Source: Allacma fusca
Lineage: Eukaryota; Arthropoda; Collembola; Symphypleona; Sminthuridae
Length of the DNA stretch: 64,000 nucleotides
Assembly (NCBI GenBank): GCA_947179485.1
Contig: CAMXBY010000083.1
Span: forward strand, 62,001-126,000
Direction: 5' to 3'
Shown: positions 14,311 to 62,352 of the stretch, piece after piece
Layout of the letters: every line of letters starts with the position of its first letter
Position numbering within the stretch: the first letter of the stretch is position 1
Program-made: the position numbers and the translations under genes
The notes under the pieces: generated by a model
Database searches by the model: none
What the model was told of the DNA's origin: nothing
The model's input: the letters and a program-made list of their open reading frames with translations, nothing else

Positions 14311-15801
14311 TACAAAATACTGTATTTTAAATACAATACTTGGTAGGAAATTTAAAATACTCAAATAAAAAATACTGTATTTTAAATACAATACTTGGTA
14401 GGAAATTTAAAATACTCAAATACAAAATACTGTATTTTAAATACAATACTTGGTAGGAAATTTAAAATACTCAAATACAAAATACTGTATTTTAAATACA
14501 ATACTTGGTAGGAAATTTAAAATACTCAAATACAAAATACTGTATTTTAAATACAGTACTTGGTAGGAAATTTAAACTACTCAAATACAAAATACTGTAT
14601 TTTAAATACAATACTTGGTAGGAAATTTAAAATACTCAAATACAAAATACTGTATTTTAAATACAATACTTGGTAGGAAATTTAAAATACTCAAATACAA
14701 AATACTGTATTTTAAATACAATACTTGGTAGGAAATTTAAAATACTCAAATACAAAATACTGTATTTTAAATACAATACTTGGTAGGAAATTTAAAATAC
14801 TCAAATACAAAATACTGTATTTTAAATACAGTACTTGGTAGGAAATTTAAACTACTCAAATACAAAATACTGTATTTTAAATACAATACTTGGTAGGAAA
14901 TTTAAAATACTCAAATACAAAATACTGTATTTTAAATACAATACTTGGTAGGAAATTTAAAATACTCAAATATAAAATACTGTATTTTAAATACAATACT
15001 TGGTAGGAAATTTAAAACACTCAAATACAAAATACTGTATTTTAAATACAATACTTGGTACGAAATTTAAAATACTCAAATACAAAATACTGTATTTTAA
15101 ATACAATACTTGGTAGGAAATTTAAAATACTCAAATACAAAATACTGTATTTTAAATACAATACTTGGTAGAAAATTTAAAATACTCAAATACAAAATAC
15201 TGTATTTTAAATACAATACTTGGTAGGAAATTTAAAATACTCAAATACAAAATACTGTATTTTAAATACAATACTTGGTAGGAAATTTAAAATACTCAAT
15301 TACAAAATACTGTATTTTAAATACAATACTTGGTAAGAAATTTAAAATACTCAAATACAAAATACTGTATTTTAAATACAATACTTGGTAAGAAATTTAA
15401 AATACTCAAATACAAAATACTGTATTTTAAATACAATACTTGGTACGAAATTTAAAATACTCAAATACAAAATACTGTATTTTAAATACAATACTTGGTA
15501 GGAAATTTAAAATACTCAAATACAAAATACTGTATTTTAAATACAATACTTGGTAGGAAATTTAAAATACTCAAATAAAAAATACTGTATTTTAAATACA
15601 ATACTTGGTAGGAAATTTAAAATACTCAAATACAAAATACTGTATTTTAAATACAATACTTGGTAGGAAATTTAAAATACTCAATTACAAAATACTGTAT
15701 TTTAAATACAATACTTGGTAGGAAATTTAAAATACTCAAATACAAAATACTGTATTTTAAATACAATACTTGGTAAGAAATTTAAAATACTCAAATACAA
15801 A

Positions 15802-15805
15802 ATAC
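15802..15805. repeat. Target-site duplication ATAC (left)
   Basis: The four bases ATAC just outside the left LTR match the four bases just outside the right LTR (35655-35658). Removing the element and one ATAC restores an uninterrupted satellite monomer, so the insertion is clean. Four-base duplications are typical of many insect gypsy-type elements. Confidence 0.9.
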
Positions 15806-16848
15806 TGTTGAATTGACTACTCCGCCTCAAGAAATAATCAACCAGATGGATCTAAAGTGGAAACAAGATTATGCAAAGTGGCAAATAAAAGAGAGTGTGT
15901 AGTGGATTTTGGAAACATGTCTACGTGCAAGGTTGAGGCATCCGTCGAATCCGTAACCAGGAACACAAATGAGTAATTTGTAAATGAGAATTATTCTAAG
16001 AATGATGTAAATAAAAATAATGAAAAGGAATTATCGTATATGATTCTGTTCATATCCTTTTAACACGACATTACTTTATTGAATTCCATTACTTAAACCT
16101 TCATATTTATTCTAGGTTCCAATCTGAATGTTAAACTGTCTCTACCTTTGTGAGGGAGGTAGGATTCCCTTCTTAAATCTAGACAAATGTACTCTGATTA
16201 ACTACAGAAAATATAGTGTAAATTGTAGGTATGAAAACTGTTAATAATGTCCGCAGATAATAGTATTCTGGATGTTCTAGAATAACGTACTGCAAATATT
16301 CCATATATTAAAATGTTAAACAAGCAATTTCACCTAACTGACTCTTACTGCTATTTCGTCGTTTAGTTACATGCAATGGTCATCCATAGTGGAGACCTTC
16401 CCCAAATCACCTATCATAAATAGAATTGAGTCGTGAGGAGGAAGACCTCAAACCTATGGGTTTAACTACAGTGAAAACAAAAGTATAAGAAAGAATGTAC
16501 ATTAATTTACAGGCACAACATAATAACTTTACATAGACATACCGGGCAGTCACACAGCCAAGTCGCGTGAGTTTGGGAAAAGGGGGAACTGAAGAGGCAG
16601 CGATGAGCAGGGGTGACGACTGTATCTTCATGTAAATAGTAGGCCGCACACTTGAGAGTTGTGGAGAAGGGTCTTATTTTGGAAGAGAGTGAACTTTACG
16701 AAGGGGAACACATGCGGTGGTCGGGCTTGTATCTCTCCTTCCTTTTCATGATGAAAGTAAAAGTGTCTCTTGGAGAGTTTTAAGATTGTAAGGACTCTTA
16801 GCACATGATGGGGCAACTCGAGTCTCGAAGTGTAAAATATTCAGAGTC

Positions 16849-16854
16849 TTTATT
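16849..16854 (-). promoter_or_regulatory. Polyadenylation signal AATAAA in the 3' LTR
   Basis: TTTATT on the plus strand reads AATAAA in element orientation, about 170 bp downstream of the LTR TATA box. This is the expected order for the end of R, and cleavage would fall roughly 15-30 nt further on. The same hexamer is present in the 5' LTR at 35230-35235. Confidence 0.6.
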
Positions 16855-17019
16855 TTGCACTTATCTCGAAATTATGAGATCGGAACTTCGTAGAAAATAA
16901 CACTTGGAGTGAGGGCTGAATAGAAGATAGTTTAGAAGTTGAACTGGGCGATGTCGAGCTCTGACCCGGAGACGTGGGGCTAGGTGCTGTCGAGCTCTGC
17001 TCTCTGTGTTGGAAGATGT

Positions 17020-17026
17020 TTATATA
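17020..17026 (-). promoter_or_regulatory. TATA box in the left LTR
   Basis: TATATAA in element orientation, in the context CCCTATATAAACATC. It lies about 250 bp from the LTR's 5' end. The active promoter for the element would be the identical copy in the right LTR. Confidence 0.6.
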
Positions 17027-17276
17027 GGGCTTCAAGTTCTCCTCCTCTTGGAGATCTCACCTTCTTAATTTAGTTACCTTTAGTACAGGTTTTAGGCTTT
17101 TGGGGAGCTTGAGAGATCCCTGTTGATCTATTGGTGGTGGGCTGAGATGAGCGTCTGTTTGAAAGAGTTCTCATAGGCGCTCTCGAAGGCGGAAGTCAGG
17201 CCCACTCTCGGTACACCTGTACTTGGATGCTCTTGTATGATTTTTTGTCATGACGTAAGTTTTAGCCTTAACATGG

Positions 17277-17284
17277 CTTTTCTT
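17277..17284 (-). promoter_or_regulatory. Weak polypurine tract candidate
   Basis: AAGAAAAG in element orientation lies three bases (CCA) before the 3' LTR. It is the only purine run next to the LTR and therefore the best plus-strand primer candidate. It is short and not flush with the LTR, so support is modest. Confidence 0.4.
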
Positions 17285-17307
17285 GGCTACTGGTTGTCCT
17301 CAACCAG

Positions 17308-17679
17308 CTATACTGCACTCACTGCAGGTGGACAAAAATCATATTGAGATGGCTCGGTAGTAAAGTGGCCAGGAGGTGTCCACACTGGAGATTGACGAAA
17401 AAGTCGGCGCTGGAGGTATGGGTGGACACAAAATTTGCATATTACGAAGAAGGTTAGAAACCCAATGACTGAATAGGGCAAGACTATAAATATGATGTAT
17501 AATATAGACATTGAAGAGTTTGAATGGATTAGTTCATTTTTGATAGAGTTCGTGAATCCAATTGTTGCCATAATCAGGAAAAAGTAGCGCTGGAACGGAC
17601 TTATAGCTGTGGGGGCGCTGGTGGGTGAGTGTGTGGGGTTGGTTGGTATTTGGCTACTTGCCACGGAAGGCACTCGCAA
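17308..17679 (-). CDS. 123-aa single-pass membrane protein next to the 3' LTR
   Basis: I do not recognise a family. The N-terminus is rich in Ser, Thr and Pro (residues 1-28). A strongly hydrophobic segment at about residues 58-81 is a convincing transmembrane helix, preceded by an N-glycosylation-type NSS. A weaker hydrophobic stretch lies at residues 33-42. The tail is basic (QRRLFR) and then Pro-rich. The ORF starts inside the end of the 139-aa ORF (79-nt overlap) and stops 35 bp before the 3' LTR, the position where env-bearing elements keep their membrane protein. It has no signal peptide, cysteine pattern or fusion peptide to call it Env. It could be a viroporin-like protein, a degraded env remnant or a chance frame. 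Confidence 0.5.
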   Translation of the reverse strand: MRVPSVASSQIPTNPTHSPTSAPTAISPFQRYFFLIMATIGFTNSIKNELIHSNSSMSILYIIFIVLPYSVIGFLTFFVICKFCVHPYLQRRLFRQSPVWTPPGHFTTEPSQYDFCPPAVSAV

Positions 17680-18020
17680 TATGGGAAATCGGGATTGATT
17701 GTCTCGAGCAGGTGCAAAATATTATTCATAGTTTGGGCATAAGTCTCAAAATTGTCAGTGTAATGAGCTCTGATCAAACCATTGGCTGAAAGAATAAATT
17801 TTACACAGTCTATAAGTAATCTGTTGATTAGAATGTTCTGATATGGGAGTGTTTGTTCGAATGGGGTGATGTTTTCAATGGTCTTTTGAATATCTAGCTG
17901 TAACCGGAGGAGCTGGATTGCTGAAGGACCGATGTCGCCTATCTTGTCTGGAACATTCTTTGGTGGTTGTGGTGGAGGATTGGGGATAGACTGGTGACTG
18001 CACGAAGGACGCGCACTCAT
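17601..18020 (-). CDS. 139-aa helical protein of unknown function
   Basis: No family recognised. After a Pro-rich N-terminus (about residues 10-30) comes a region predicted by eye to be mostly alpha-helical (residues 33-110), with regularly spaced Leu and Ile. The C-terminus is His/Pro-rich. Its last 79 nt overlap the start of the 123-aa membrane ORF in another frame, as in compact viral genomes. It is preceded by about 1.2 kb without a convincing gene, so if expressed it probably uses a spliced or subgenomic message. Confidence 0.45.
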   Translation of the reverse strand: MSARPSCSHQSIPNPPPQPPKNVPDKIGDIGPSAIQLLRLQLDIQKTIENITPFEQTLPYQNILINRLLIDCVKFILSANGLIRAHYTDNFETYAQTMNNILHLLETINPDFPYCECLPWQVAKYQPTPHTHPPAPPQL

Positions 18021-19263
18021 GTTGCTTGCACTTTTTATACACTCAAAATTTGTTATACATTCATTCGTTATTTTAATATATTTCCATTCGGTATTTTAAT
18101 ATACTAGAGGTGAAGAATAATTCGGTTTTCCTGATAGTGTATAGGAAAGTTTGGGAAGAATGAGAATTTCGCCCCTAATAACTCGAGCAAAATTGAAATA
18201 AGAATGAAAAATGAAAAGATACGATCTTACAGTGAGAAATCCTATGGATTTTCCTGGAAAGTTACTGTTTTGTGCGACACTTTACGGATCACTCGTTCTG
18301 GTGTTGGAACTTGATCTTCGGGAATCAGGGAATCTGATTGTTCGGGTGATTTGACACACAAGTTCAGGTCACGTCACTGAGAATTTCTTGGGAAACTGCT
18401 TCTTATGATGTAGGAGTAAAGGTGATGATGATCCTTGTCAAAGGCTGCTTTGCAATTTCCGTGGATGTCTCACTTGAGGACTGAAGTACGAAATTTCCCT
18501 GTGATTTGGTCGTCTTCCTTGATATTTTGAGGTAGACTTCTTCCCTGAGGTTTCTTCCTTGTAACGCAGATTGCCGTCTGAAGTTGAAAAAGTACTAATT
18601 GCTGGGGGTTGCCGTTCTTCAATGGCGAAGCACTTTAACGTAGAACTCGTAAATGGTTCAAGTCGCTAATTCACACAGCAAGAGAAAAAGGTTTTCTGGA
18701 AAATTTGAGAATTTGAAGGGACAAAAACTCTTGGCTAGGACGAACCTTTGCTGAATGGTTACAAGAGTGTATCCATGATGAGAGAAAGATAATGGCGTTT
18801 CAGACAAAACTACAATTCGGAAAGTAATACTAACAACTTCTCCAGAACCATTCCAGAAAGTAAGTATTACATTCAAAGGAGAGAGGGATGATATTCCTCA
18901 AACAGAAGTAGCTACGTGAAACTAATAAAGTTTTTAAGTCGCGATTACTCAGACATAGGTGTCAACAGAAAAGTTACAGATTAGAATAAATCTCTTTGGA
19001 TTTATGTAGGCACTTAACTAATGATAATGATATACTTGGTTTAATATACTCGCACTCAATGTTGATAGAAGTTAAAGTAAACTTGATTTCTTAAATATAT
19101 GTAAACTTTAAAGAAAAGTTTAAGAAGTATTCAAAGTAAAATTCAGAGAGAATCTCTATAAGTGTTTAAGAGTGAAGTCAAAATAAAATTTGAATTTGAA
19201 GAGCAAGAGAGAAGTTCAAATAGTGTTGAAGGGTTGATCAGCTCAAGCGAACTGATGCTTCTT
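18021..19263 (-). other. Internal stretch without a convincing gene
   Basis: This 1.24-kb part of the element, between the 218-aa and 139-aa ORFs, has many stops in all minus frames. The longest clean frame is 72 codons (18876-18658) with no recognisable motif; an 85-codon frame (19400-19143) overlaps the end of the 218-aa ORF. It may hold splice signals or a decayed gene. Confidence 0.5.
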
Positions 19264-19920
19264 TCAGTCGCTCTCCGAATATTTATACTCGAGAAGGGAG
19301 TGAGAGGGTGAGTCTGCTCGCTTCTGATTGGAGGGACCAAGTAGCGTACGAAAGTACCTAAAGACTCGTGTGAGAAAAGGGGAGTTGGAGTTGGCTGCAT
19401 TGGAAGTAATGCTGCTTCGGGTACTCGAACCTCGTGTGGTGGAGGATTCCTTTTCTTTTAGAAGGGGAGTGGTATCTTCGGTAGTAGTTGAGTCAGCGGG
19501 GGTCTTGCTGGCGACTCTGAACTTACTAAAGTCCATGTTGAAAATCTGGTCTATTCCTGACTGTGTATGGGTGGAAATAAACTTCTTGGCAGAGGGATTA
19601 GAAAGTACTGGCAGCATGAATGGTAGTGCTGGAGTATTTTCAGCTGCACCTGGCAATGTGAGGCTAACAATAGTGCACATAGAAAGTAAGGGGATTATTC
19701 CTAGGTTGGAGCCTCCTCCTGAACCTGATGTTGAAGGGTTTGAGTCTATTTCCATCGTGTCACCTGTGGCTGTAGCTGTGGTAGGGGGTAAGTTTCGTTG
19801 AGCTTTAGCTAATTCTATAGCAGTGTTGGTGCGTCTGATAGTCTGATGCCTACTGTGCTTAAAGTTTATTTGAGTGGGCTGTCTATTAATAACTCGCAGC
19901 CGGTGGGCGTCTAAGTCCAC
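19264..19920 (-). CDS. 218-aa protein of unknown function with one hydrophobic segment
   Basis: No family recognised. The N-terminal 45 residues are basic (the HSRHQTIRR region could serve nuclear import or nucleic-acid binding). A Gly/Ser linker follows (about 60-71), then a hydrophobic segment at about residues 73-92 that could be a membrane helix. The C-terminal half is rich in Ser and Thr and ends with basic and acidic patches. The ORF starts 44 nt after the stop of the 561-aa ORF in a different frame. A long open frame on the opposite strand (19328-19801) is a shadow of this region. Position after pol and the single hydrophobic segment make a very divergent structural or accessory protein possible. 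Confidence 0.5.
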   Translation of the reverse strand: MDLDAHRLRVINRQPTQINFKHSRHQTIRRTNTAIELAKAQRNLPPTTATATGDTMEIDSNPSTSGSGGGSNLGIIPLLSMCTIVSLTLPGAAENTPALPFMLPVLSNPSAKKFISTHTQSGIDQIFNMDFSKFRVASKTPADSTTTEDTTPLLKEKESSTTRGSSTRSSITSNAANSNSPFLTRVFRYFRTLLGPSNQKRADSPSHSLLEYKYSESD

Positions 19921-19964
19921 GTGAGGTGCAAATAGATGTTTGTACTGGTGGAAAAAGTGTATAT

Positions 19965-21650
19965 CTATGACTTGATATAGCTCTTAACCGTACATATCTG
20001 CACGTCTTCTAAGCATGATACTGATGCAAGTCTACAGGGGGATAGTTCGTTCCCTAATGCATATGTTGTGAGCTGAGCTAGTAGTTTTCTCTCTACATTG
20101 AGATTTTGTTGAACAAAAACAGGGGCTCCATTGTCTGAAATGAATTTTTCAAACTTTTGCTTAAGGGGTATAGTAGTTTTATAGCCTGCTGGGAAATGAA
20201 GATTGTTTATTTCTGAAGGTCTAAACTCTCTAACAAGGGTAATCTCTATTTCCTGCTGGGTAATAGGCAAAAGCTTTAAGGGTGTCTCAGGGATGTTGAG
20301 GAGTCTATTATACTCGTCTAGGTTAATGAACCTTGTGCGAGTATTTATGGGGAGTTGCTGTTGATGTTGAGCTCCTTGCTGTCGGAAAGCTACTAGGCTA
20401 TGGTCAAATGTGAGCTTCTTTCCGGGATATATGCGTCTGTATTCAATTTCTCTCCTCTTGAAGTTTGCCCAAGTTTTAATATGGAATTCTTCGCAAACTG
20501 TGATTTTGGGGAGAAGAGCATTGGCCTTTATAATATCTCCTGCTTGGAGGAAAGTATTATGGTCAGTAGTCAACTTATTGTATGTTCTTGTGGCATCTTG
20601 AGCTGCTTGGAATAATTGTTCTAAAAGGATTTTAAATTCATCCTCTAGAGTGTTACTGTTGTCTGTACTGACTACGTCAATACTTTCAGTACTTTTCGAA
20701 TTATCTGCATATTCTGAGTCAATGGTGTTAATTACTTCGTTAATGGGAATTTGATTTATTTCAGCGTTTTCTTCTTCTTCAGTGATGGTTTCTATCGTAG
20801 TGGGGCCTGTCGTAACTTGATTGTTAACAATGGCTATGGTAGGATAGGTATTTGAGGATGGACCTAATGGACATCCACTGTCAGTTCGTTGCCTAAAATA
20901 AGTCTGACTTATTCGGGAAGGGTGACTGATAGAGGAAGTAGGAATTGAGGAAAGGTCTGAAGTCTCAGATAGATTAGCTCCTACCCTGCTGAGAGATAAT
21001 GAAGAATGAGTGGAGGCCATATCCCTATCAGGTATATGCATTACCGGAATATTTTGAGTTATCTCCTGCTGTTGGTAATCATTCCCATTGTCAGGAACAA
21101 ATTCATATATGGTTTGGGTGGAGTGAGAATAAGGAGTTGCATAAGTATGTTCCTGTGTGATATGTTGGGCTGAAGGATTAGTATGAGTCGAGGAAGGAAA
21201 GATGGGAGTTATAGTAGTAGCCATATTCATAGGAAGGTGAGTAAACATGGGGGCTGGTGTGCATGGCACGTGCCGCAAGGGAGTAGGTTGAACCTGCTCA
21301 GCTTGTTTCTGACTGAATATGCGAGCATTTTCCTTAATAAGCTCTATTTTGAAATTAATTTCGTCTCTTACTGTGTTGGTGAAGTTAGTGGGTAGTCCTC
21401 CTTCAGTCCACTTCTCGTAACTTATGTGGCGGGCTCCGACACCGGACCATGGATGATAGGTGGTTGAGTGTGGGAGTATATCTCCGTTGGAATTGTAAAA
21501 ACACAATCTCACTGTTTGATTAATGGGGAGAAATGCACATAATTCGACTCTTTCATGTACTGCACTATAGCATCGGCGATGATAGGGGTCTGCGAAGTCG
21601 GTAGTCCGGGCTCGTGGGCCTTCTACGGTTGGTCTTCGTCTTTTCTCCAT
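19965..21650 (-). CDS. 561-aa post-integrase protein of unknown function
   Basis: A long intact frame, so very likely coding, but no known family is recognisable. The first 120 residues look folded (many aromatic and charged residues, a cysteine pair near 27 and 38). Residues about 120-300 are low-complexity, rich in Ser, Thr, Pro and Gln. An acidic run lies near 310-320. A helical region with coiled-coil character spans roughly 350-400, and a folded C-terminal region follows. No signal peptide or membrane helix is seen, which argues against a standard Env. The start overlaps the 3' end of the integrase frame by 86 nt in another frame, so expression by frameshift, splicing or reinitiation is possible. 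Confidence 0.7.
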   Translation of the reverse strand: MEKRRRPTVEGPRARTTDFADPYHRRCYSAVHERVELCAFLPINQTVRLCFYNSNGDILPHSTTYHPWSGVGARHISYEKWTEGGLPTNFTNTVRDEINFKIELIKENARIFSQKQAEQVQPTPLRHVPCTPAPMFTHLPMNMATTITPIFPSSTHTNPSAQHITQEHTYATPYSHSTQTIYEFVPDNGNDYQQQEITQNIPVMHIPDRDMASTHSSLSLSRVGANLSETSDLSSIPTSSISHPSRISQTYFRQRTDSGCPLGPSSNTYPTIAIVNNQVTTGPTTIETITEEEENAEINQIPINEVINTIDSEYADNSKSTESIDVVSTDNSNTLEDEFKILLEQLFQAAQDATRTYNKLTTDHNTFLQAGDIIKANALLPKITVCEEFHIKTWANFKRREIEYRRIYPGKKLTFDHSLVAFRQQGAQHQQQLPINTRTRFINLDEYNRLLNIPETPLKLLPITQQEIEITLVREFRPSEINNLHFPAGYKTTIPLKQKFEKFISDNGAPVFVQQNLNVERKLLAQLTTYALGNELSPCRLASVSCLEDVQICTVKSYIKS

Positions 21651-22989
21651 GCTGTTGACCTCTAGTCATGCGATGATATTCTGTTTCTTCGAGACTTCTA
21701 GCTCCGGGACTTCTATAGGTGTAGGTGGGATCACTTTCCTTGATTTTCTTCGGACGACCTCGCCTCGCCTTTTTAACTGTGATGACTGGGACTTCTGGTT
21801 CAATAATTGAGCCTGTCGTCCTTTTGCTCTTTGGAATCTTTCCTCTCTGTTTGAGGGGGGTCGCGAACCGCACACGTTTCTTGGTGGAAGTGGAGGAGGG
21901 CTCAGGTGAGTGCTCTCGGGTGAGGTCGGTTGATGGCCACAAAGGCACGAGAGTAGCCTGCTTAATATCGGCTCTCGGTGGGTCACACTCATGAGTATTT
22001 GGGTCCGAAGCACTTTCCACTAAAGGTTCTTCTATGGCGAAGTCGAAGGCAAAGAAACCGTCTCGATTACGATAATACTTTAATCTATCAGCGTGAACTA
22101 AGATTATTTTTGACGGGTTTGACATTAGGGATAATGAAAAGTTATCCCTCTGATCTTTTGCTATGACTTTGTAGGGACCGGCGTACCTAGCTAAGAATTT
22201 CTCGGCGAAGCCTACTTTTCTCGATGGTGTAAATACTCTCACTAAGTCTCCAACTTCATATCTAGGTTTATTTCTACGTGTATTATAAACCTTAGCGCTA
22301 TATTCCTGACTCTTCGTAATTCTATTGCGAGCTTTCAAAAGTATTTTCTCAAGCTCGGCGGGGGTGCGTTGAGTTTTAAGAATATCTAAGTTTATAATGA
22401 AGTCCAGGGGACGGTTGGCTTCTCGTTTGTAAAAGAGTAAGAAGGGGGACTCTCTAGTGGTTGCATGTACTGCAGTATTGTAAGCAAAGGTTACTTGTGG
22501 TACATATAGGCTCCATAACTTTTGAGCTTCTAGCCCATCTTGTTTATTATTGACAAAATGAGAAATCATTCTCGCAAAAGTCTGATTGGCTCGTTCTGTC
22601 AAACCATTAGTTTGTGGATGATATGGAGTGCTGAACTCTTTCTTACTTCCTAATAATAACATAATGTTATTAAGGAGGCAATTGTTAAATTCTGTACCCT
22701 GGTCTGTAAGTAACACCTTGAAACAACCATGTACACAAATAATATCATTGACGAAGAAGCTAGCTATTTCTTTAGCCTCTTTACTTTTAAGGCATTTGGT
22801 AAATACATATCTCGTGCTATATTCGGTAGCTACAATGATATATTTAAATCCTTCTATGCTTTCAGGGAATGGTCCCATCAAGTCTGCGCCTATTAAGTCA
22901 AATATCTCACCTACTTTTATACTGTGTAATTGGCCTACGGGTCTAGTGGTCGTGTGTTTACTAGCACCGCAAGTCTCAGCTGAGGACAT
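21565..22989 (-). CDS. Integrase with GPY motif and AT-hook tail
   Basis: Catalyses 3'-end processing and strand transfer of element DNA. The triad D36, D96 and E132 has exactly 35 residues between the second Asp and the Glu, in the contexts GADLMG, LTDQGTEF and TNGLTER. A GPY motif lies at 271-273 after the usual RYA context. There is no chromodomain. Instead the long basic tail has a KKARRGRPKK block (RGRP at residues 410-413), the core of an AT-hook that binds the minor groove of AT-rich DNA. The frame differs from that of protease-RT and overlaps it by only 14 nt. The H-H half of the zinc finger is at the end of the upstream ORF and only one Cys of the C-C half is in this one. Its 3' end overlaps the 561-aa ORF. 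Confidence 0.92.
   Translation of the reverse strand: MSSAETCGASKHTTTRPVGQLHSIKVGEIFDLIGADLMGPFPESIEGFKYIIVATEYSTRYVFTKCLKSKEAKEIASFFVNDIICVHGCFKVLLTDQGTEFNNCLLNNIMLLLGSKKEFSTPYHPQTNGLTERANQTFARMISHFVNNKQDGLEAQKLWSLYVPQVTFAYNTAVHATTRESPFLLFYKREANRPLDFIINLDILKTQRTPAELEKILLKARNRITKSQEYSAKVYNTRRNKPRYEVGDLVRVFTPSRKVGFAEKFLARYAGPYKVIAKDQRDNFSLSLMSNPSKIILVHADRLKYYRNRDGFFAFDFAIEEPLVESASDPNTHECDPPRADIKQATLVPLWPSTDLTREHSPEPSSTSTKKRVRFATPLKQRGKIPKSKRTTGSIIEPEVPVITVKKARRGRPKKIKESDPTYTYRSPGARSLEETEYHRMTRGQQHGEKTKTNRRRPTSPDYRLRRPLSSPML
21748..21774 (-). other. AT-hook in the integrase tail
   Basis: The encoded block KKARRGRPK surrounds the RGRP core, flanked by basic residues on both sides, as in HMGA-type AT-hooks. 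It replaces the chromodomain found at this place in some Ty3/gypsy integrases. Binding of AT-rich DNA is known for the motif; a role in target choice is inference. Confidence 0.7.
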
Positions 22990-25753: not shown

Positions 25754-25793
25754 AGAGTATATCTCTGCGATTTGGTCTTCTTTCGTGATACTT

Positions 25794-25822
25794 GGGAGCC
25801 CTGAGGACTCCCGTAAGTCCTA
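25794..25822 (-). promoter_or_regulatory. Gag UAG stop with downstream readthrough hairpin
   Basis: The gag frame ends CAA CAA UAG, and pol continues in the same frame. Seven nucleotides after the stop (GACUUAC) begins a hairpin: GGGAGUCC (25812-25805), loop UCA, GGGCUCCC (25801-25794). It has eight pairs, one of them U-G. Gammaretroviruses make Gag-Pol by reading through UAG with a structure starting about 8 nt downstream, so the geometry fits. Readthrough itself is inferred. Confidence 0.7.
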
Positions 25823-28615: not shown

Positions 28616-28626
28616 AAGGACTATGC

Positions 28627-28827
28627 TTATTTAGGAAGTTGGTATAGTATGAACCATAGAATAAGGTTTCCTAATATGAGGATGGCAATGAGTGGCACGA
28701 GTATGACTAAAAGACCTTCACATATTTTTGGTCCGTTGGTTTGTAAAATATTTGTGCTTGCTACTGGGACTAAGCGTCTACGACTGACTGTATATACACC
28801 GTTATAGGGAAGTCTCCTCTTGGTCAT
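28627..28827 (-). CDS. 66-aa membrane protein upstream of gag
   Basis: Unrecognised. The N-terminus is basic (TKRRL, SRRRL) and a long, uninterrupted hydrophobic segment at about residues 36-62 is a clear membrane helix, leaving almost no C-terminal tail. This gives a tail-anchored or type III topology with the basic part in the cytosol. It lies 11 nt before the gag start and about 110 nt after the BTB-like ORF, all on the same strand. Small size and one helix are compatible with a viroporin or an anchor for other element proteins; neither role can be shown from sequence. Confidence 0.6.
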   Translation of the reverse strand: MTKRRLPYNGVYTVSRRRLVPVASTNILQTNGPKICEGLLVILVPLIAILILGNLILWFILYQLPK

Positions 28828-28938
28828 AAGAAGGGACTAAGAGTGACTTATCGTCTTATATTTAGTAAAGATTTATAGATTAAGTAAAGAGTGTATACAA
28901 GAAGTAAGAAAATTGTCAAATTGTTTAAGACCTGGACT

Positions 28939-29460
28939 TCAGAGGAAGTCGTTGGGGTTGAGGTCCAATTCAGGGGCATTAAACACAAGGGCTGGTGAGT
29001 GAAGCAGCTTAAACTTCTGATGTATTTGGGATGCTACGTGAGGGTTGGCAGGTACGCATCCATAGTACACGTTGGCGAAGAAAATTGTTGCTTCAATCAC
29101 ATCAGCTTCTGGAATAGGTAGAAGCCAATAATTTCCAATTTTCTGTAATGTGTTTGGAGTTGGTATTAGAGAAGTTTGAGCTTCTAGTACTACACGATGA
29201 CACGCTTTAATCCAACCATGCCCAACTAGAATCACATCGTACGGTTGGTTTCCCATAAGATGATGATATGATGTTTGAGGATGTGTAGGATGGATACTAG
29301 CGGCTGGGGTGGGTTGTTGGCTCATATTTGCTTTTAAGCGCATGTAGTATAAATGCCATAAAATAAAATTATTAAAATTATGCATTGACAAAACATATAA
29401 AAGAAGGATAGAAGTACGAGTTGAAGTAAGGTAAGCGGAGTCATATTGAATTTTTCTCAA
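28939..29460 (-). CDS. BTB/POZ-like protein
   Basis: From M46 (base 29325), which is a likely alternative start giving 128 aa, the protein has a BTB-like pattern. YDVILV matches the opening beta strand, GWIKACHRVVLEAQTS matches the usual 'kfkaHrvvLaarS' stretch with one extra residue, and IPEADVIEATIFFANVYYGCVP matches the 'pdvspeaFealLeflYtGev' segment before the final helices. The usual F..L/MF segment is shortened. BTB domains mediate dimerisation and recruitment of Cullin-3 or corepressors. Recognition is by eye only. The first 45 codons contain a hydrophobic run; they start 7 nt after the previous stop, so the longer form is also possible. Such a domain is not a normal retrotransposon component. 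Confidence 0.55.
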   Translation of the reverse strand: MRKIQYDSAYLTSTRTSILLLYVLSMHNFNNFILWHLYYMRLKANMSQQPTPAASIHPTHPQTSYHHLMGNQPYDVILVGHGWIKACHRVVLEAQTSLIPTPNTLQKIGNYWLLPIPEADVIEATIFFANVYYGCVPANPHVASQIHQKFKLLHSPALVFNAPELDLNPNDFL

Positions 29461-29467
29461 TACTGGC

Positions 29468-29812
29468 TTAACATTCGTAGGATCTTATAAGTGTCCCTCT
29501 CTTAATTTCTTCTAAGTTGTGTACTACCTTGTATCTATATTCTAAAGGCACAATGTATTGATTTGAGTGGAAATATCTATAATGTTGCAGGTTAGGAGTG
29601 AGATTTCGTTTTTGTTTGAAAAGAAAAATTGTTAAAAAGCGTTGAAATCTGAACTGGCTATTTCTAATATTATACAGCTGGCCTACAAATGGAAGAATTC
29701 TATTTAAAATTTCAGCGTCTAATTCTAATAATTGGGGGTTGGTTTCGAAAAGGAACGTATTGTCCGGTCTGGGTACTAGAGTCTTTTCGTTCAGCTCTAG
29801 TGATTGCATCAT
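29468..29812 (-). CDS. 114-aa protein of unknown function
   Basis: Unrecognised, mixed charged and aromatic composition, no membrane helix. It overlaps the preceding 94-aa ORF by 101 nt in a +1 frame and is followed after 7 nt by the BTB-like ORF. Its middle part (an ELDAEILNRIL helix followed by QFRFQRFLTIF and KQKRNL) loosely resembles the C-terminal half of the 81-aa ORF upstream, while the 94-aa ORF resembles the N-terminal half. The 94/114 pair could be one ancestral gene split by a frame change, or two overlapping genes. Confidence 0.45.
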   Translation of the reverse strand: MMQSLELNEKTLVPRPDNTFLFETNPQLLELDAEILNRILPFVGQLYNIRNSQFRFQRFLTIFLFKQKRNLTPNLQHYRYFHSNQYIVPLEYRYKVVHNLEEIKRGTLIRSYEC

Positions 29813-29996
29813 ACATAACCCAGTATGGATTTTGAGAATTCAGAACTTCGTTCTTTCTATATAGAAAATTTGAAAGGTTAACTGCCTGTCTAGAATTTTC
29901 AGCTATTTTGATTATTAATTCCGTGTGGGCTAATTGTGGCTTAGCGTAAGCTATTTGTGAAAGCTGGAAATAAAAATTCTTTCGAAGTTCAGTCAT
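29712..29996 (-). CDS. 94-aa protein, possible paralogue of the 81-aa ORF
   Basis: Unrecognised. The start MTELRKNFYFQLSQI lines up with the start of the preceding 81-aa ORF (MSFLKYSFYTKLSEI): shared FY, LS and I at the same spacing, and a shared NL about 30 residues later. The C-terminal part is basic (IIRIRR). It begins 6 nt after the previous stop and overlaps the next ORF by 101 nt. The packing suggests translation from a shared message by reinitiation or an alternative route. Confidence 0.45.
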   Translation of the reverse strand: MTELRKNFYFQLSQIAYAKPQLAHTELIIKIAENSRQAVNLSNFLYRKNEVLNSQNPYWVMYDAITRAERKDSSTQTGQYVPFRNQPPIIRIRR

Positions 29997-30002
29997 ATTC
30001 TG

Positions 30003-30248
30003 TTATAATTTCAAATTCTTGCCCTTTTGTTGTGGAAATATTTTCCATAAGAGGCGTTGTTTAGTTTGAAACTGGAAAATTTGTTGCTTCAAAATTTTCT
30101 TAAAGACTGGATCTGAAAGTTCTCTTAGGTTGGGAGCTTGGTCAAATTCTTCAGCTTGAAGACTGATAAAGGCTGAGACATAAGGGTTGCAAGGTGAAGT
30201 TTTGATTTCACTAAGCTTTGTGTAAAAAGAATATTTTAAGAAACTCAT
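30003..30248 (-). CDS. 81-aa basic protein of unknown function
   Basis: Unrecognised. It has a FYTKLSEI N-terminal block also seen in the 94-aa ORF and a lysine- and glutamine-rich C-terminal half (KKILKQQIFQFQTKQ), probably helical. It starts 2 nt after the stop of the 53-aa membrane ORF and ends 6 nt before the 94-aa ORF. No signal peptide or membrane helix. Confidence 0.45.
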   Translation of the reverse strand: MSFLKYSFYTKLSEIKTSPCNPYVSAFISLQAEEFDQAPNLRELSDPVFKKILKQQIFQFQTKQRLLWKIFPQQKGKNLKL

Positions 30249-30250
30249 TT

Positions 30251-30412
30251 CTAATTGTAACCTGAATTATTTCTGTATCCATTCCTATCGTTTAAATTTC
30301 TCAGAAGGGAAATATTGAAATAAACAAGAAGCGCTATGAATAGTACCAGCACCACTGTTAATAAATTTCCGGTAGGAATTTCACCATTTGTTGTAAAACA
30401 AATACATGCCAT
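30251..30412 (-). CDS. 53-aa single-pass membrane protein
   Basis: Found by hand-translating the minus strand; the protein starts MACICFTTNGEIPTG. A hydrophobic segment at about residues 16-37 (LLTVVLVLFIALLVYF within it) is a clear transmembrane helix. The N-terminus is short with two Cys, and the C-terminal tail is polar and Asn-rich with RNLNDRNGYRNN. Only 2 nt separate its stop from the next start. It is the first member of the packed ORF block. Size and layout resemble viroporins or small viral membrane proteins, but this is not proof of function. Confidence 0.5.
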   Translation of the reverse strand: MACICFTTNGEIPTGNLLTVVLVLFIALLVYFNISLLRNLNDRNGYRNNSGYN

Positions 30413-31953
30413 TTAAAATTAAAATAAAGACTGACCTGTTGGTAGAAGGTAGTAGTATGAGTACACTGTTCGAGAAGAGTCTCACAATTTGTAGAAAGTG
30501 TTAAAAGAAAAAATTTTAAAAATAAAAATTTAAAATTTTGAAGTAAGGTTGAACAAGAGTGTTCAGTGAGAAGTGAAGAAGTTGAATGGTAAAAATAAAA
30601 TGAAAGATGAATAAGGGATGTAATCGTAGTTGCTCTAGGATTAGTGATTTTTCTCCAGGTTGCACTTCTCATAAGCTTTACTTACGCTTCATCTAGGGTT
30701 GAGGTGAGCCAGGTGAGGGGGATTTTTCTTCGTGTGATAAGATTTAGTCTCTTCTTGTTGGTTGGCTCTAGGAGCGATAGCGTCTTTCTATGCTCCACCT
30801 CTTCACACGTGTTGATGCTAAAAGGGGCTAAAATCCTATTTGTAACACGCAAATAATATTCAACTCTTTTGAATTTACTTACTATTTTAAGTTAACCGAA
30901 GCTCTGGGATTTTTACCCTGAGTACGCGTCACTCACGCACGTGTACTCAGATTAGCTGGGGAATACAAAGTCATAAATTGTTAGATTTCTGACATGTGTT
31001 TCCTGACTGGCTTTTGTCCGGTGCCTATGAGTCTGAAAGTAAATCCTTAAAAATAATTAGATTATTTTCATCCTTTTGTGTAGCCTCAGTCTACCATTAA
31101 CTGATAGTGGTTGGGCTTTTGTTTGCATTTTGACGTTCCTCTTTACAAAGGATTAAGATGTTACTTTCCTTTTGTGTGTAAAAGGGTAACCCGGAACCAT
31201 TAGCAATTGGTTTGCTTCTAGAGGTAAAGTTAAGTGGTGGTGAAAATTTATTACCTCTGCTGTCATCCATTGAGGGTGATGTGGTTCTATTGTGTGCGTT
31301 AGACAGAGTTATTATTTGTCTTGGCGTCCCGTAGGGTAAATACACAGGGTACCTCTTTCACCTTTTGTGAGGCATCGTGATCTATTACTGAAAAAGGATT
31401 AGTTTACTTTACGCATCACCGCACAATCTCATATTAGACTATGTGGTAAGTTCAATGTTTGGCACTTCTGGTAAAACTTGCCTGACAGGTTTACTCATCC
31501 TGTCGACTTAAGTCTCACTTAGCTAGTCATAAATTTTCTTTTCACTACACACGAAGTTTCCAGAGCCACGCGCTCCTTCTCGCTAAGTATGTAGTATGAA
31601 TGTTGTTTTTCATCCATTATAACTTGTTGATTGTAAATACAAGCTTGAGCCTCGCTCTTATCTCCGATCTGTATTACAATGAATAGGCTGTCATCTCGCC
31701 TGGTGGGGTTCTCATGATTTGTGTATGTGTACTACAAGCTTATTGAGCCTCGCTCTTTTCTCCGATCTGTAGTGCACACATGGAGTTCTTTCTTCTCCAT
31801 TTGTAAAGAAAATTTGCTCTCTTTCCTTTACAATGGTATTAAAAATAAAATGAACATTTCCTACCTCATTTGAAATCTTTACACATTGGCTCTCCCATTG
31901 TGTGTTCATTCTGCTCTCATTCTAATACCTTAAGTGGCGTAAAATGAGTTGAC
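30413..31953 (-). other. Leader region with weak small ORFs, distal half
   Basis: Between the primer site and the packed gene block. It holds frames of 104 (30672-30358), 82 (31345-31097) and 65 codons (31909-31712) with no recognisable motif. The 104-codon frame overlaps the 53-aa membrane ORF. A 28-bp direct repeat (TGAGCCTCGCTCTT...CGATCTGTA, one mismatch) lies at 31646-31673 and 31744-31771, each shortly after an AAGCTT. I see no promoter or RNA gene. Confidence 0.4.
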
Positions 31954-32235
31954 TCAAAGTTGGTTGAGAGCCAAAAAGTGGTAGAATTTATGGGCTGACA
32001 GGTTGAACACTACAAGCGATGTTCCTCTCATAATTACTGTTGTAACTGGAGAGTGCCTGTACAAATCCCATAAATCTGTCAACTTGACATGTTTATTGTT
32101 TTCCAGGCGTTGGGGTCTTTTTAGTCTCCAACGGCTAGAACTTTGGTTAAACTGTGAAAACCAGAAGGATTTTTCAAAGTAAAGATTTTCCGTTGGCTGA
32201 TCAGGCCTCGAGAATATTTTTACTTGGGTATCCAA
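31954..32235 (-). CDS. 93-aa hypothetical protein in the leader
   Basis: An open frame of mixed composition with an Arg/Lys patch in the middle and a hydrophobic, His-containing end (VVFNLSAHKFYHFL). It overlaps the end of the preceding 82-codon frame by 16 nt, the same kind of tight packing seen nearer to gag. No family is recognised. Frames of this length arise by chance, so evidence is weak. Confidence 0.28.
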   Translation of the reverse strand: MDTQVKIFSRPDQPTENLYFEKSFWFSQFNQSSSRWRLKRPQRLENNKHVKLTDLWDLYRHSPVTTVIMRGTSLVVFNLSAHKFYHFLALNQL

Positions 32236-32468
32236 CTAACCATGTATGTTCTTGTTATAAGCTTACTCACAGCTAACTTGGTAGCTATAACTCCTTGGGT
32301 AAGGGTTTTCAGCGTATAATCTGAGTATACATACATTTCAGGTCTCTTTCTCAGGCTGTGTGATACACACCACAGCTTGGGGTAAAGTAGACAAACCATG
32401 TCACGAATCAGAGAGGGGAGTCTCACACTGCTCCTCATACGGCGCTCTGTCGTGATGGAGATTTTCAC
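32220..32468 (-). CDS. 82-aa hypothetical protein in the leader
   Basis: A basic protein with two Cys in the CLLYPKLWC stretch and a helical end. It overlaps the next frame by 16 nt. Not recognised; chance cannot be excluded. Confidence 0.25.
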   Translation of the reverse strand: MKISITTERRMRSSVRLPSLIRDMVCLLYPKLWCVSHSLRKRPEMYVYSDYTLKTLTQGVIATKLAVSKLITRTYMVSWIPK

Positions 32469-33430
32469 TTCATGATGATTTTCAGCCTTGTAAAAATTCT
32501 CAATTTTTACTCAGCTCCGTAATTATTCAAAGACGGGGTATTTTTACATTGGAAATACTGCTCCATATATTTGTATGATAATCCTAACAAATATGGTAAA
32601 ATAGGAACCTTACAAAACAAGGTTTAACTCCGCGAGTCAAGTGGCTTGTCTTCATAATTCATTTTCCATACTAAAATAATTTCCTGGTACTCGGCAATAT
32701 TTCAAGCCTTTCTTATCCCATCTATCTCTCTATGGGGGAAATATATTTTACGCTCTAGAAAATCTATCAAAAATTATGAATTTCCGAATAGACATAAGGT
32801 TTTTCTATTACTACGATGTTTAAGCAGACTGTTAGTAATTCTTTTCGCGTTAAAGGAATCATAACTTAAACTTTCACTGATTTTATGTTGTCTCACCCTC
32901 AAAAATACCTTGAAAGTCGTCTTAGCTTAACTACGAGGTTTTGACTCTAATAATATCAAAGCGCTATCGGCATTAAATATAGCAAGCTTAATTTAAGCGT
33001 TTCACTTATTTATAATTTTACTTCTAAAATTAAGAACGAGTTAGACGTTTTTGGAATGGAGACTCGCAGTCTCGAATAATTGGAGAGCTCTCTCCCTACA
33101 ATTATTCTGTTTAAGTGTGCTACACGGCATAACTCTAGCATGCACTTTTACTCATGTTTAAAAGTTTAAAATTATTTTACTCCTATAATTTTAGGACTTT
33201 TTGAATGGCTCTTTACTCAAAATATAGTTTGATACTCGAAGGTAATTGTAGTAACTCCGTTTAGTACAATTTGAATTGGGCTCTTAAAGATTTTTGAAAT
33301 TTTCCAAAATTTTGAAAAGTTTTGAAAAAGTTGGTTGTAAAATTCTGTAATTTGGAGGAATGATGGGCAATAATATTGTTCGTCATCCTGTAAAGTTTGA
33401 AAGGAATCGGATCACTTTTTGTGTACATGG
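32469..33430 (-). other. Leader region without a gene
   Basis: AT-rich sequence with stops in all minus frames apart from short runs. It is presumably 5' untranslated leader carrying packaging or splicing signals; none can be identified by eye. Confidence 0.5.
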
Positions 33431-33955
33431 GGTAATGTGAAACAATATTTTTACTCCATGTTGAATGTAATATTAAAAATTTTTTGGCGTGACCCGTGGG
33501 CGACAAAGTGAAAACAGAATTTTAACCTTCTCTTTTCTAGTATTTGATAACACCATGTTGAAAACCATGTTTGATTATATTCATTAAAAGATAAAGTGTT
33601 TATGGATTTTGGAAAATTTTGACATGAGCTGGGGGCGACAAAGTGAAAACAGAACATTACCTTTTTACTTTTATAGGGTTCTGGGCTCACCATGTTGAAT
33701 TGAATTTTATACTATCTTTATAAAATTTCAATGTGTTTTGGAATTTTTAAAAAAATTGACAGGGTTTGGGGGCGACAAAGTGAAAACAGAAATTTCACCG
33801 TCGCTTTTAAATTTTGGAATTACCATGTTGAATCCAAATCTCATTGTACAATTAATAAGATATAATGTGTTTATAATTTTTGAAAAATTTGGACAGGGTT
33901 TGGGGGTACAAAGTGAAAACAGAATTTTAACCTTCACTTTCAGCTTAAACCCTTG
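33431..33955 (-). repeat. About 135-bp tandem repeat in the leader, four units
   Basis: The plus-strand block GGGGGCGACAAAGTGAAAAC (or close variants) occurs with its ACAAAG core near 33501, 33636, 33773 and 33906, spacing 133-137 bp. The companion block CCATGTTGAA occurs at 33456, 33553, 33690 and 33823. Units are diverged by substitutions and small indels. CCATGTTGAA is also the sequence spanning the primer site and LTR edge at 34184. Open frames of 69-81 codons here are by-products of the repeat. Confidence 0.8.
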
Positions 33956-34170
33956 ATTAAAAATAAAGTTACTAATAATAAATGTTAAATTGCCCTCTGA
34001 AAAAAATTTCTACGTTTTAGAAGCGTTAGTACTAGTGTAGTGGAATGTATACAAGTAAGGCACCAATGGTTCGTAATAGGGGTTTATAAAAATTTCGAAT
34101 TTTTATCAATTAAAAATAAAAATAATTTTCTTATTTTTAATTCTCATTTACACTCTCATTTATAGTGTTC

Positions 34171-34186
34171 CCGGGCGGAAACACCA
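34171..34186 (-). promoter_or_regulatory. Primer-binding site for tRNA-Val
   Basis: The plus strand reads CCGGGCGGAAACACCA directly abutting the LTR, which is the 3' end of a tRNA including CCA. CGGAAAC plus discriminator A pairs with an acceptor arm starting GTTTCCG, the sequence I know for metazoan tRNA-Val (AAC/CAC). In element orientation the site reads TGGTGTTTCCGCCCGG, immediately after the 5' LTR with no spacer. Confidence 0.8.
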
Positions 34187-35654
34187 TGTTGAATTGACTA
34201 CTCCGCCTCAAGAAATAATCAACCAGACGGATCTAAAGTGGAAACAAGATTATGCAAAGGGGCAAATAAAAGAGAGTGTGTAGTGGATTTTGGAAACATG
34301 TCTACGTGCAAGGTTGAGGCATCCGTCGAATCCGTAACCAGGAACACAAATGAGTAATTTGTAAATGAGAATTATTCTAAGAATGATGTAAATAAAAATA
34401 ATGAAAAGGAATTATCGTATATGATTCTGTTCATATCCTTTTAACACGACATTACTTTATTGAATTCCATTACTTAAACCTTCATATTTATTCTAGGTTC
34501 CAATCTGAATGTTAAACTGTCTCTACCTTTGTGAGGGAGGTAGGATTCCCTTCTTAAATCTAGACAAATGTACTCTGATTAACTACAGAAAATATAGTGT
34601 AAATTGTAGGTATGAAAACTGTTAATAATGTCCGCAGATAATAGTATTCTGGATGTTCTAGAATAACGTACTGCAAATATTCCATATATTAAAATGTTAA
34701 ACAAGCAATTTAACCTAACTGACTCTTACTGCTATTTCGTGGTTTAGTTACATGCAATGGTCATCCATAGTGGAGACCTTCCCCAAATCACCTATCATAA
34801 ATAGAATTGAGTCGTGAGGAGGAAGACCTCAAACCTATGGGTTTAACTAAAGTGAAAACAAAAGTATAAGAAAGAATGTACATTAATTTACAGGCACAAC
34901 ATAATAACTTTACATAGACATACCGGGCAGTCACACAGCCAAGTCGCGTGAGTTTGGGAAAAAAGGGAACTGAAGAGGCAGCGATGAGCAGGGGTGACGA
35001 CTGTATCTTCATGTAAATAGTAGGCCGCACACTTGAGAGTTGTGGAGAAGGGTCTTATTTTGTAAGAGAGTGAACTTTACGAAGGGGAACACATGCAGTG
35101 GTCGGGCTTGTATCTCTCCTTCCTTTTCATGATGAAAGTAAAAGTGTCTCTTGGAGAGTTTTAAGATTGTAAGGACTCTTAGAACATGATGGGGCAACTC
35201 GAGTCTCGAAGTGTAAAATATTCAGAGTCTTTATTTTGCACTTATCTCGAAATTATGAGATCGGAACTTCGTAGAAAATAACACTTGGAGTGAGGGCTGA
35301 ATAGAAGATAGTTTAGAAGTTGAACTGGGCGATGTCGAGCTCTGACCCGGAGACGTGAGGCTAGGTGCTGTCGAGCTCTGCTCTCTGTGTTGGAAGATGT
35401 TTATATAGGGCTTCAAGTTCTCCTCCTCTTGGAGATCTCACCTTCTTAATTTAGTTACCTTTAGTACAGGTTTTAGGCTTTTGGGGAGCTTGAGAGATCC
35501 CTGTTGATCTATTGGTGGTGGGCTGAGATGAGCGTCTGTTTTAAAGAGTTCTCATAGGCGCTCTCGAAGGCGGAAGTCAGGCCCACTCTCGGTACACCTG
35601 TACTTGGATGCTCTTGTATGATTGTTTGTCATGACGTAAGTTTTAGCCTTAACA
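34187..35654 (-). repeat. 5' LTR (right copy)
   Basis: 1,468 bp, the promoter-bearing copy for the element. In element orientation it begins TGTTAAGGC and ends AATTCAACA. It differs from the left copy by 13 substitutions (for example GATGG/GACGG near the U5 end and GGGAAAAGGGGG/GGGAAAAAAGGG). Confidence 0.96.
35401..35407 (-). promoter_or_regulatory. TATA box of the element promoter
   Basis: TATATAA in element orientation, about 250 bp into the 5' LTR. Transcription would start about 25-30 bp downstream, near 35375, and run through R and U5 into the primer site. Confidence 0.6.
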
Positions 35655-35658
35655 ATAC
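35655..35658. repeat. Target-site duplication ATAC (right)
   Basis: ATAC repeats the bases before the left LTR. The next bases TGTATTTTAAAT continue the interrupted monomer. Confidence 0.9.
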
Positions 35659-62340: not shown

Positions 62341-62352
62341 TTTTAACACTGA

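Follow-up and report, generated by a model that had tools for sequence, protein, structure and literature searches.

The window analyzed here, a 64,000-nt stretch of the genome of the collembolan Allacma fusca, harbors on its minus strand a long terminal repeat (LTR) retroelement. With a probability of roughly 0.7, we consider it to be an autonomous giant element of the Ty3/gypsy type that was active recently and is represented here by a damaged copy; it would translate polycistronic RNA, probably by reinitiation. The gene set of its family comprises 17 open reading frames (ORFs), namely six ORFs before gag, gag and pol with an intervening UAG codon, a ~795-aa ORF3, a group of six ORFs termed t1–t6 and two 3' ORFs (y139 and y87). 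Most of the 15 ORFs beyond gag and pol are arranged in three clusters, and nearly all of them bear signs of purifying selection. LTR retrotransposons are usually viewed as gag-pol machines of 5–10 kb. By gene count, the Allacma element is as complex as a small virus; it inserted very recently, and selection maintains the majority of its small genes.

Structure and length of the element family

All coordinates refer to the window, and element positions (el) are counted from window position 35654 (el 1). Self-comparison delimited two LTRs of 1468 nt each on the minus strand, the 5' LTR (34187..35654; TGTT...AACA) and the 3' LTR (15806..17273), which are 99.1% identical (13/1468 mismatches). Both flanks carry the 4-bp target-site duplication (TSD) ATAC (left 15802..15805, right 35655-35658). 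The primer-binding site (PBS) TGGTGTTTCCGCCCGGGA (34169..34186, minus strand) directly adjoins the 5' LTR; it has the same sequence in all six other copies compared, and we take it to resemble the complement of the 3' end of tRNA-Val. Hallmarks of Ty3/gypsy elements (Metaviridae) are thus present, including two LTRs, a TSD of 4 bp (within 4–6 bp) and a PBS behind the 5' LTR. An earlier sequence-only reading of the window had described LTRs, a PBS and Gag and Pol domains. All of them were recovered, with the LTRs at exactly these positions and the domains on the minus strand, and the family placement was borne out by the Gag zinc knuckles, the order protease (PR), reverse transcriptase (RT), RNase H (RH) and integrase (IN), and an RT closest to Ty3 Gag-Pol.

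Further copies were sought with Gag in the A. fusca genome (91 contigs, 392,743,791 bases), with the window located on contig C84. Since 49 of 454 candidates were scored, the copy counts are lower bounds: there are at least 40 Gag matches, and at least 12 of the copies, including the one in the window, are open over at least residues 3–931. Six of the 11 other copies with an open gag (c2–c7) were compared with the window copy, making seven copies in all; a 5.8-kb piece of a further copy entered none of the counts. Their common gene order extends from the 5' LTR to el ~17,600, with spacers of varying length. Three other copies that were followed through the end of the 3' LTR measure 24,602, 24,555 and 24,767 bp. 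In the three with both LTRs read, the LTR pairs are free of mismatches (0/1445, 0/1444 and 0/1445), indicating that these copies inserted very recently, and the TSDs of the three with both flanks read are ATAT, CTAT and ATAT. The window copy, which lacks t1–t6, differs from copies c3, c5 and c6 by ~4.5 kb of extra sequence that the latter hold at el ~17,602–17,629; the junction of this deletion lies at 18026..18053 (minus strand), where t1–t6 are found in other copies. A spliced intron was discarded as an explanation for the difference, as its ends do not fit GT-AG (judged by eye).

Because the window copy lacks these ~4.5 kb, its 19.8 kb do not represent the length of the family. The initial description of the element as nearly intact also had to be abandoned, since frame breaks split both pol and ORF3 (ORFs of 561 and 218 aa form a single ORF3 elsewhere) and t1–t6 are deleted. 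What gained support is the proposal of a giant lineage with accessory genes, as the pre-gag block, ORF3 and t1–t6 are all present in six other copies.

A region on contig C1 (66.36-66.61 Mb) contains a cluster of mostly decayed gag relatives (41–86% identity, many with stops) and looks like an older graveyard of this family.

Conservation of the additional ORFs

The block before gag, like all ORFs described below on the minus strand, consists of p81 (81 aa; 30003..30248), p94 (94 aa; 29712..29996), p114 (114 aa; 29468..29812; 101-nt overlap with p94), p148 (148 aa; 28939..29385), s43 (43 aa; 28848..28979; 41-nt overlap with p148) and s66 (66 aa; 28627..28827). The protein encoded by s43 has one hydrophobic segment, and that of s66 has a basic N-terminal part and a strong predicted transmembrane segment. 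These two small membrane ORFs directly before gag were missing from the original list of extra same-strand ORFs. The presence of many such ORFs was confirmed, and codon-level conservation shows them to be more than a product of chance. As for the spacing reported there, the gaps that recurred among the conserved ORFs measure 6 and 11 nt and the overlaps 101 and 86 nt, while a 2-nt gap was not reproduced. A 7-nt gap before a 173-aa ORF requires a TTG start, and the conserved part of this ORF is the 148-aa p148, read from ATG. Similarly, a 79-nt overlap at the 3' end depends on a TTG start, whereas y87, starting from ATG, has 87 aa and no overlap; the stretch upstream of this ATG shows, by subtraction, ~1.7 synonymous and 11.3 nonsynonymous changes relative to c3.

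Behind pol, ORF3 was delineated from its frame and the comparison of copies. In the window copy, it is split into a first part of 561 aa (19965..21650), which overlaps pol by 86 nt, and a second part (19264..19980), and it forms one ORF of 792–796 aa in all six other copies. The t ORFs, deleted from the window copy, encode proteins of 98, 75, 83, 81, 76 and 78 aa in copy c6 (L023:2178-3713), with spacings of 37, 23, 0, -11 and -4 nt, and matches to all six are present in each of the six other copies. They are paralogous: among 16 element proteins compared with phmmer, E-values within the t family reach 2e-13, although some pairs are weak (t1–t4) and t2–t6 share 16–29% identity with t1, whereas no pair outside this family falls below E 0.02. 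A paralogous relationship of p81 and p94 was rejected on the basis of this comparison (E only 0.02–0.03). In c6, the t cluster begins ~3.3 kb behind ORF3, and y139 follows ~1.2 kb behind t6. In the window, y139 (139 aa) spans 17601..18020 and y87 (87 aa; a predicted transmembrane segment followed by a basic stretch and a proline-rich tail) 17308..17571.

The frames of p81, p94, s43, s66 and gag are intact in all seven copies (with the gag of c2 counted as intact because it can be read without interruption from a nearby ATG of its own), those of p114, p148 and ORF3 in six of seven and that of pol in five of seven. Among the t ORFs, t1 is intact in five of six copies and t2–t6 in six of six each. 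Both y139 and y87 are intact in four of four copies where they were read; both are absent from c2 and were not reached in two copies. Pairwise ratios of nonsynonymous to synonymous divergence (dN/dS) relative to the window copy amount to 0–0.08 for p94, 0.07–0.21 for p114, 0.18–0.37 for the 173-aa ORF holding p148, 0.07–0.12 and 0.19–0.26 for the first and second part of ORF3, and 0.10–0.15 for gag; p81 yields 0.11–0.23 in five pairs and 0.72 in one. Relative to copy c6, t1–t6 show a dN of 0–0.034 at a dS of 0.04–0.36.

Differences per synonymous and nonsynonymous site number 5/47 versus 3/196 for p81, 12/61 versus 2/221 for p94, 13/70 versus 4/272 for p114, 14.5/97 versus 14.5/347 for p148, 9/48 versus 0/150 for s66 and 13/93 versus 5/324 for y139. 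Across pairs, s66 carries 0 or 1 nonsynonymous against 6–9 synonymous changes. With the best of up to six copy pairs taken for each ORF and p left uncorrected, the synonymous excess reaches p 0.047 for s43, 0.008 for p81, 6e-4 for p148 and <1e-5 for all other ORFs, down to 2e-21 for ORF3. The case for s43, with few changes (1–2 nonsynonymous and 1–3 synonymous), rests mainly on its intact frame.

A scan for coding signal in all six frames (40-codon windows, lowest ratios compared by region) reached a minimum of 0.02 in the block before gag (25 lowest values 0.02–0.36, two of them, 0.14 and 0.27, on the opposite strand of s66) and of 0.01 in the t cluster (14 lowest values 0.01–0.04). The corresponding minima in the controls were 0.19 in the leader (from 4 synonymous and 3 nonsynonymous changes), 0.40 in the LTR and 0.41–0.49 in the spacers. 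Synonymous-biased change and intact frames, together with the lack of such a signal in most non-coding controls, thus identify the accessory ORFs as genes. Copies that lacked the ORFs or showed dN/dS near 1 had been named as grounds for refutation; in the six other copies, the ORFs instead changed mainly at synonymous sites.

None of the accessory ORFs searched could be assigned to a known family. In Pfam, p81, p94, p148, ORF3 and t1–t6 have no match below E 0.05, and p114, the 173-aa ORF, y139 and the y87 frame none at E<=1; Rfam gave no match at E<=1 anywhere in the element. The best E-values of ORF3 are 0.2 in Pfam and 1.6 in the PDB; it has no relative at E<=0.001 among 5.8 billion proteins and was not found in viral contigs. 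A by-eye impression of p148 as a BTB domain was dismissed, given the absence of any Pfam match even at E 10, a best PDB E-value of 2.1 and a model with a predicted local distance difference test score (pLDDT) of 35.

Upstream of p81 lies a 3.9-kb leader (30249..34186, minus strand) with 65 ATGs, which is without clear coding signal in the codon scan and the copy comparison. Several further ORFs of the element (30672-30358, 31357-31097, 33693-33451, 22019-21666 and 19457-19143) were rejected as genes because of frame breaks, stops or a lack of synonymous excess, and two frames in the conserved leader (32438-32220 and 32235-31954) carry too few changes for their coding status to be judged. The most conserved leader block (window 31655-32755; el ~2900–4000), in which 87–98 of 100 columns are invariant among the seven copies, exceeds most synonymous sites in conservation and perhaps contains a packaging or translation signal. 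The leader also includes degenerate ~135-bp tandem repeats (~74% identity; window 33482-33940, el ~1715–2173), and its length varies between copies.

Gag, Pol and the intervening stop codon

A domain search assigned to gag (931 aa; 25820..28615, minus strand) an N-terminal part of its own, a Retrotrans_gag-like capsid region (residues 579–671) and two zinc knuckles. Gag and pol share one frame with a single TAG between them, and the stretch around this TAG is identical in all seven copies. It forms a predicted readthrough signal (25794..25822, minus strand), in which an 8-bp hairpin starts 7 nt after the TAG and is extended in the fold by four further pairs on the side towards the TAG. Over 43 nt, the fold has a free energy of -15.5 kcal/mol (z -3.05; 1/200 shuffles as stable), and over 73 nt the z-score is -2.02 (8/200 shuffles as stable).

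The window copy of pol is broken into a first part with protease, RT, RNase H and the integrase zinc domain (22976..25753, minus strand) and a second part with the integrase core and C-terminal part (21565..22989, minus strand). In five of the six other copies, pol is a single ORF of 1396 aa, and in the sixth it is interrupted by a ~860-bp insertion (L016:4182-5042). The Gag zinc knuckle and the PR-RT-RH-IN order are evident from matches to zf-CCHC (4.8e-11), RVT_1 (5.3e-23), RT_RNaseH_2 (6.3e-30) and Integrase_H2C2 (1.4e-13); weaker matches concern RVP (5.1e-4, at the cut-off), rve (1.5e-4) and Retrotrans_gag (9e-5), the last two below their cut-offs. The best PDB match of Pol is Ty3 Gag-Pol (4.2e-96). 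Among 205 proteins at E<=0.001, its best database relative aligns to 53% of the query with 33% identity (623 bits), and for Gag there is no relative at E<=0.001 among 5.8 billion proteins. In a quick tree with 81 rows, built from 80 of 120 listed Pol matches, Pol alone was flagged for its long terminal branch (1.52), leaving its clade unsure.

Two types of Gag and y87

Per 300 bp, the window copy is mostly >90% identical to c3–c7, but identity drops to 63–77% over el ~6,900–8,700, which corresponds to the N-terminal part of Gag. Over this part, c2 is of the window type (89–97%). Among the open gags, at least 12 in number, two of 12 (window and c2) belong to the window type, and 10 of 12 are 73–75% identical to the window gag. 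A similar divergence affects y87, which differs from three other copies by a dN of 0.12–0.14 and a dS of 1.0–1.1, whereas the adjacent y139 is not diverged (dS 0.12–0.15). Between types, the N-terminal half of Gag and y87 reach a dS of ~1.1, compared with ~0.15–0.2 in pol and ORF3. One backbone thus carries two types of Gag and y87; the pairing of y87 with Gag types was seen in four copies, one of them of the window type.

Genomic surroundings

A very homogeneous, AT-rich 55-bp satellite (97% matches) flanks the element on both sides (window 1-15808, 287 copies; 35654-60576, 453 copies), and the TSD places the insertion inside this array. Elsewhere in the window, a minisatellite with 31- and 62-bp units (window 62134-63241) is open for 284 codons on the plus strand from a TTG start. 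Mitochondrial COX1 has several nuclear copies on contigs C12, C5 and C8, at least four of them near-complete, in addition to that on C91, presumably the mitochondrial contig.

Expression of the clustered ORFs

We propose that transcription starts in the 5' LTR and yields one or a few RNAs, unspliced or simply spliced, and that ribosomes would pass the 3.9-kb, ATG-rich leader and translate the successive ORFs of the clusters from polycistronic RNA, chiefly through termination-reinitiation. Reinitiation may take place at TAAATG, ATGA and other short overlaps, where start contexts are weak, and Pol would be made by readthrough of the gag UAG with the help of the hairpin behind it. Fused stop-start codons, short overlaps, weak start contexts (a purine at -3 in 3/13 starts of the 5' and t clusters, gag included, with no background computed) and the finding that splice-acceptor-like sites are not enriched before starts (2/15 under 5% of background, by a crude score of our own) all fit such a mechanism. 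According to excerpts of published work, AUGA overlaps occur in caliciviruses and UAAUG in non-LTR elements (PMC5902531), and both retroviruses and retrotransposons include cases of an in-frame gag-pol stop that is overcome by readthrough (PMC10085805).

The products of s43, s66 and y87 probably carry capsids into new cells without a classical envelope, as proposed for sORF2 of the MDG1 group (see below). Their single hydrophobic segments have 19-residue hydropathy values of 1.92, 3.03 and 2.58, respectively. By eye, y87 displays basic residues (K46, H50, R55, R56 and R59) behind the segment at 26–44, s43 two arginines and s66 a basic part before its segment. The other ORFs, including the amplified t1–t6, probably act on host defense or RNA handling. 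An extended version of this proposal, in which 17 conserved cistrons, polycistronic clusters read by reinitiation, the tandem t1–t6, envelope-less spread through small membrane proteins and Gag/y87 types that look like recombined matched modules all come together, can be advanced only tentatively and is, as a whole, rather doubtful.

Several points weigh against our reading. Translation of the accessory ORFs is deduced from codon conservation, and any function given for p81–p148, ORF3 and t1–t6 is guesswork. Two structure models built from single sequences were of low quality (mean pLDDT 35 and 36), with only a helical hairpin of ORF3 reaching ~80. Single ORFs are broken in single copies. Since the window copy lacks t1–t6, and c2 runs into its 3' LTR without y139 and y87, these genes may be dispensable. 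Among the three other copies, y87 differs by 3/7, 2/1 and 1/6 synonymous/nonsynonymous changes; with nonsynonymous changes prevailing in two of three pairs of close copies, its constraint is visible only between types. An N-terminal MGxxxS/T motif is absent from s43 (MPLN), s66 (MTKR) and y87 (MATI or MTTI). Out-of-frame ATGs in the small ORFs are not depleted (14 versus 14.6, 10 versus 12.4 and 6 versus 5.0 expected), a finding that also argues against simple leaky scanning, rejected here as the main mechanism. Moreover, in excerpts of PMC5902531, an activator of reinitiation after long ORFs is known only in the Caulimoviridae, and LTR retrotransposons are said to make Gag-Pol by frameshifting. 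Finally, the t cluster, given its position ~3.3 kb behind ORF3 in c6, may need spliced or internally started RNAs.

This last point leads to the strongest competing explanation, which we rate as a serious contender at somewhat below even odds: the clusters could be expressed by alternative cis-splicing or internal promoters, with each mRNA yielding chiefly the product of its first ORF. Complex retroviruses express their accessory genes by alternative splicing. In c6, both the t cluster and y139 lie beyond stretches without coding signal, and good acceptor-like sites are found 3 nt upstream of the t5 start and 44 nt upstream of p114. However, neighbors within clusters are mostly separated by anything from a 37-nt gap down to a 101-nt overlap, a spacing too tight to accommodate introns, and there is no general enrichment of acceptor-like sites before starts. 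In addition, long reads spanning both small ORFs of MDG1-group elements are unspliced, as reported in an excerpt of a preprint (PMC11952523).

The element could alternatively be an endogenous retrovirus-like agent, with ORF3 as a divergent Env and the small ORFs as ordinary accessory genes. Its location directly behind pol, the position of env, is in line with this idea, but with a best 19-residue hydropathy of 1.49, ORF3 (795 aa) lacks a strong transmembrane segment; it has three N-glycosylation motifs, nine cysteines and no match in Pfam (best E 0.2) or the PDB (best E 1.6), nor any relative at E<=0.001 among 5.8 billion proteins, so that we regard this explanation as improbable. Even less probable is that the element recently captured the extra ORFs from host genes, or that they belong to a second, nested transposon that hitch-hikes. 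LTR elements do take up host sequence, as stated in an excerpt of PMC6431247, but the ORFs lie on the gag-pol strand, are common to copies at different places, have for the most part been kept by selection during multiplication and, being intron-free with 4-nt overlaps, are unlike host genes. The least credible option is that the block reflects accidental open frames within conserved non-coding RNA: although the leader block, 87–98% invariant and devoid of a clear coding signal, shows that high identity is no proof by itself, few changes are seen in s43 and p81 (p 0.047 and 0.008) and the leader frame 32235-31954 attains a dN/dS of 0.17–0.26 on 2–4 synonymous and 2–3 nonsynonymous changes, the synonymous excess of the other accessory ORFs (p 6e-4 for p148 to 2e-21 for ORF3) and the lowest scan ratios (0.02 before gag and 0.01 in the t cluster versus 0.19–0.49 in leader, LTR and spacers) refute it for most ORFs.

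The Allacma element may lead a life similar to that of a complex virus. Two questions become accessible to testing: by what means an animal retroelement expresses numerous densely arranged ORFs, and by which route elements lacking env move from cell to cell and from species to species. The t1–t6 genes, amplified and diverged within a mobile element, are candidates for a counter-defense against the host.

Comparison with known systems

We found no description of this giant element in the open-licence papers searched. Precedents exist singly for giant size, additional ORFs, small ORFs upstream of gag and readthrough; as far as we could find, their number and packing and the t1–t6 array are new.

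A close parallel to the block before gag is provided by MDG1-group elements of insects (412, mdg1, Stalker2). According to excerpts of a preprint (PMC11952523), conserved small ORFs likewise precede their gag directly, and one encodes a membrane protein. In Drosophila, these ORFs, sORF1 and sORF2, lie on unspliced RNA running from LTR to LTR, and the passage of capsids into the oocyte has been linked to the small membrane protein sORF2; in the Allacma element, too, no classical env was found. The MDG1 group has two small ORFs in ~7-kb transcripts, whereas the Allacma element has six before gag, plus ORF3, t1–t6 and two 3' ORFs, in ~24.6 kb. By eye, y87 resembles sORF2 and FAST-like proteins in its layout, with a short outer part, a membrane segment, a basic stretch and a proline-rich tail, but it lacks the N-terminal motif and sits behind pol. 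The same excerpts state that Stalker1 and Stalker2 also lack the MGxxxS/T motif and mention downstream positions in Lepidoptera (PMC11952523).

Among large elements, Burro of planarians is, like the Allacma element, a giant gypsy-like invertebrate element with extra coding capacity. Excerpts of PMC6431247 describe it as >30 kb long, with its extra domains in one ~4,900-aa polyprotein, whereas the Allacma extras are separate, mostly small ORFs without a recognized domain. Burro-like MATH, BIR, ankyrin or BCL2 domains were absent from Allacma gag (931 aa) and pol (1396 aa) in the domain search. As far as the excerpted sources go, Ogre owes its size largely to long LTRs (PMC6431247) and Retand has antisense extra ORFs (PMC11963269), unlike the Allacma element with its 15 sense ORFs. 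LTR retrotransposons of bdelloid rotifers similarly have varied ORF3s and small ORFs with transmembrane domains, but the rotifer ORF3s named in excerpts of PMC5408684 carry known domains (env, GDSL esterase, DEDDy), in contrast to Allacma ORF3, in which none was recognized. As to complex retroviruses, no env-like domain was detected in the ORFs scanned, a set that did not include s43 and s66, although a very divergent Env is conceivable.

The Caulimoviridae, pararetroviruses of plants, are not known to have LTRs or integrase, unlike the integrating LTR element of the animal Allacma. The arrangement of their genes corresponds to that of the Allacma element: as outlined for them in excerpts of PMC5902531, consecutive ORFs with short overlaps or fused stop-start codons follow a long leader.

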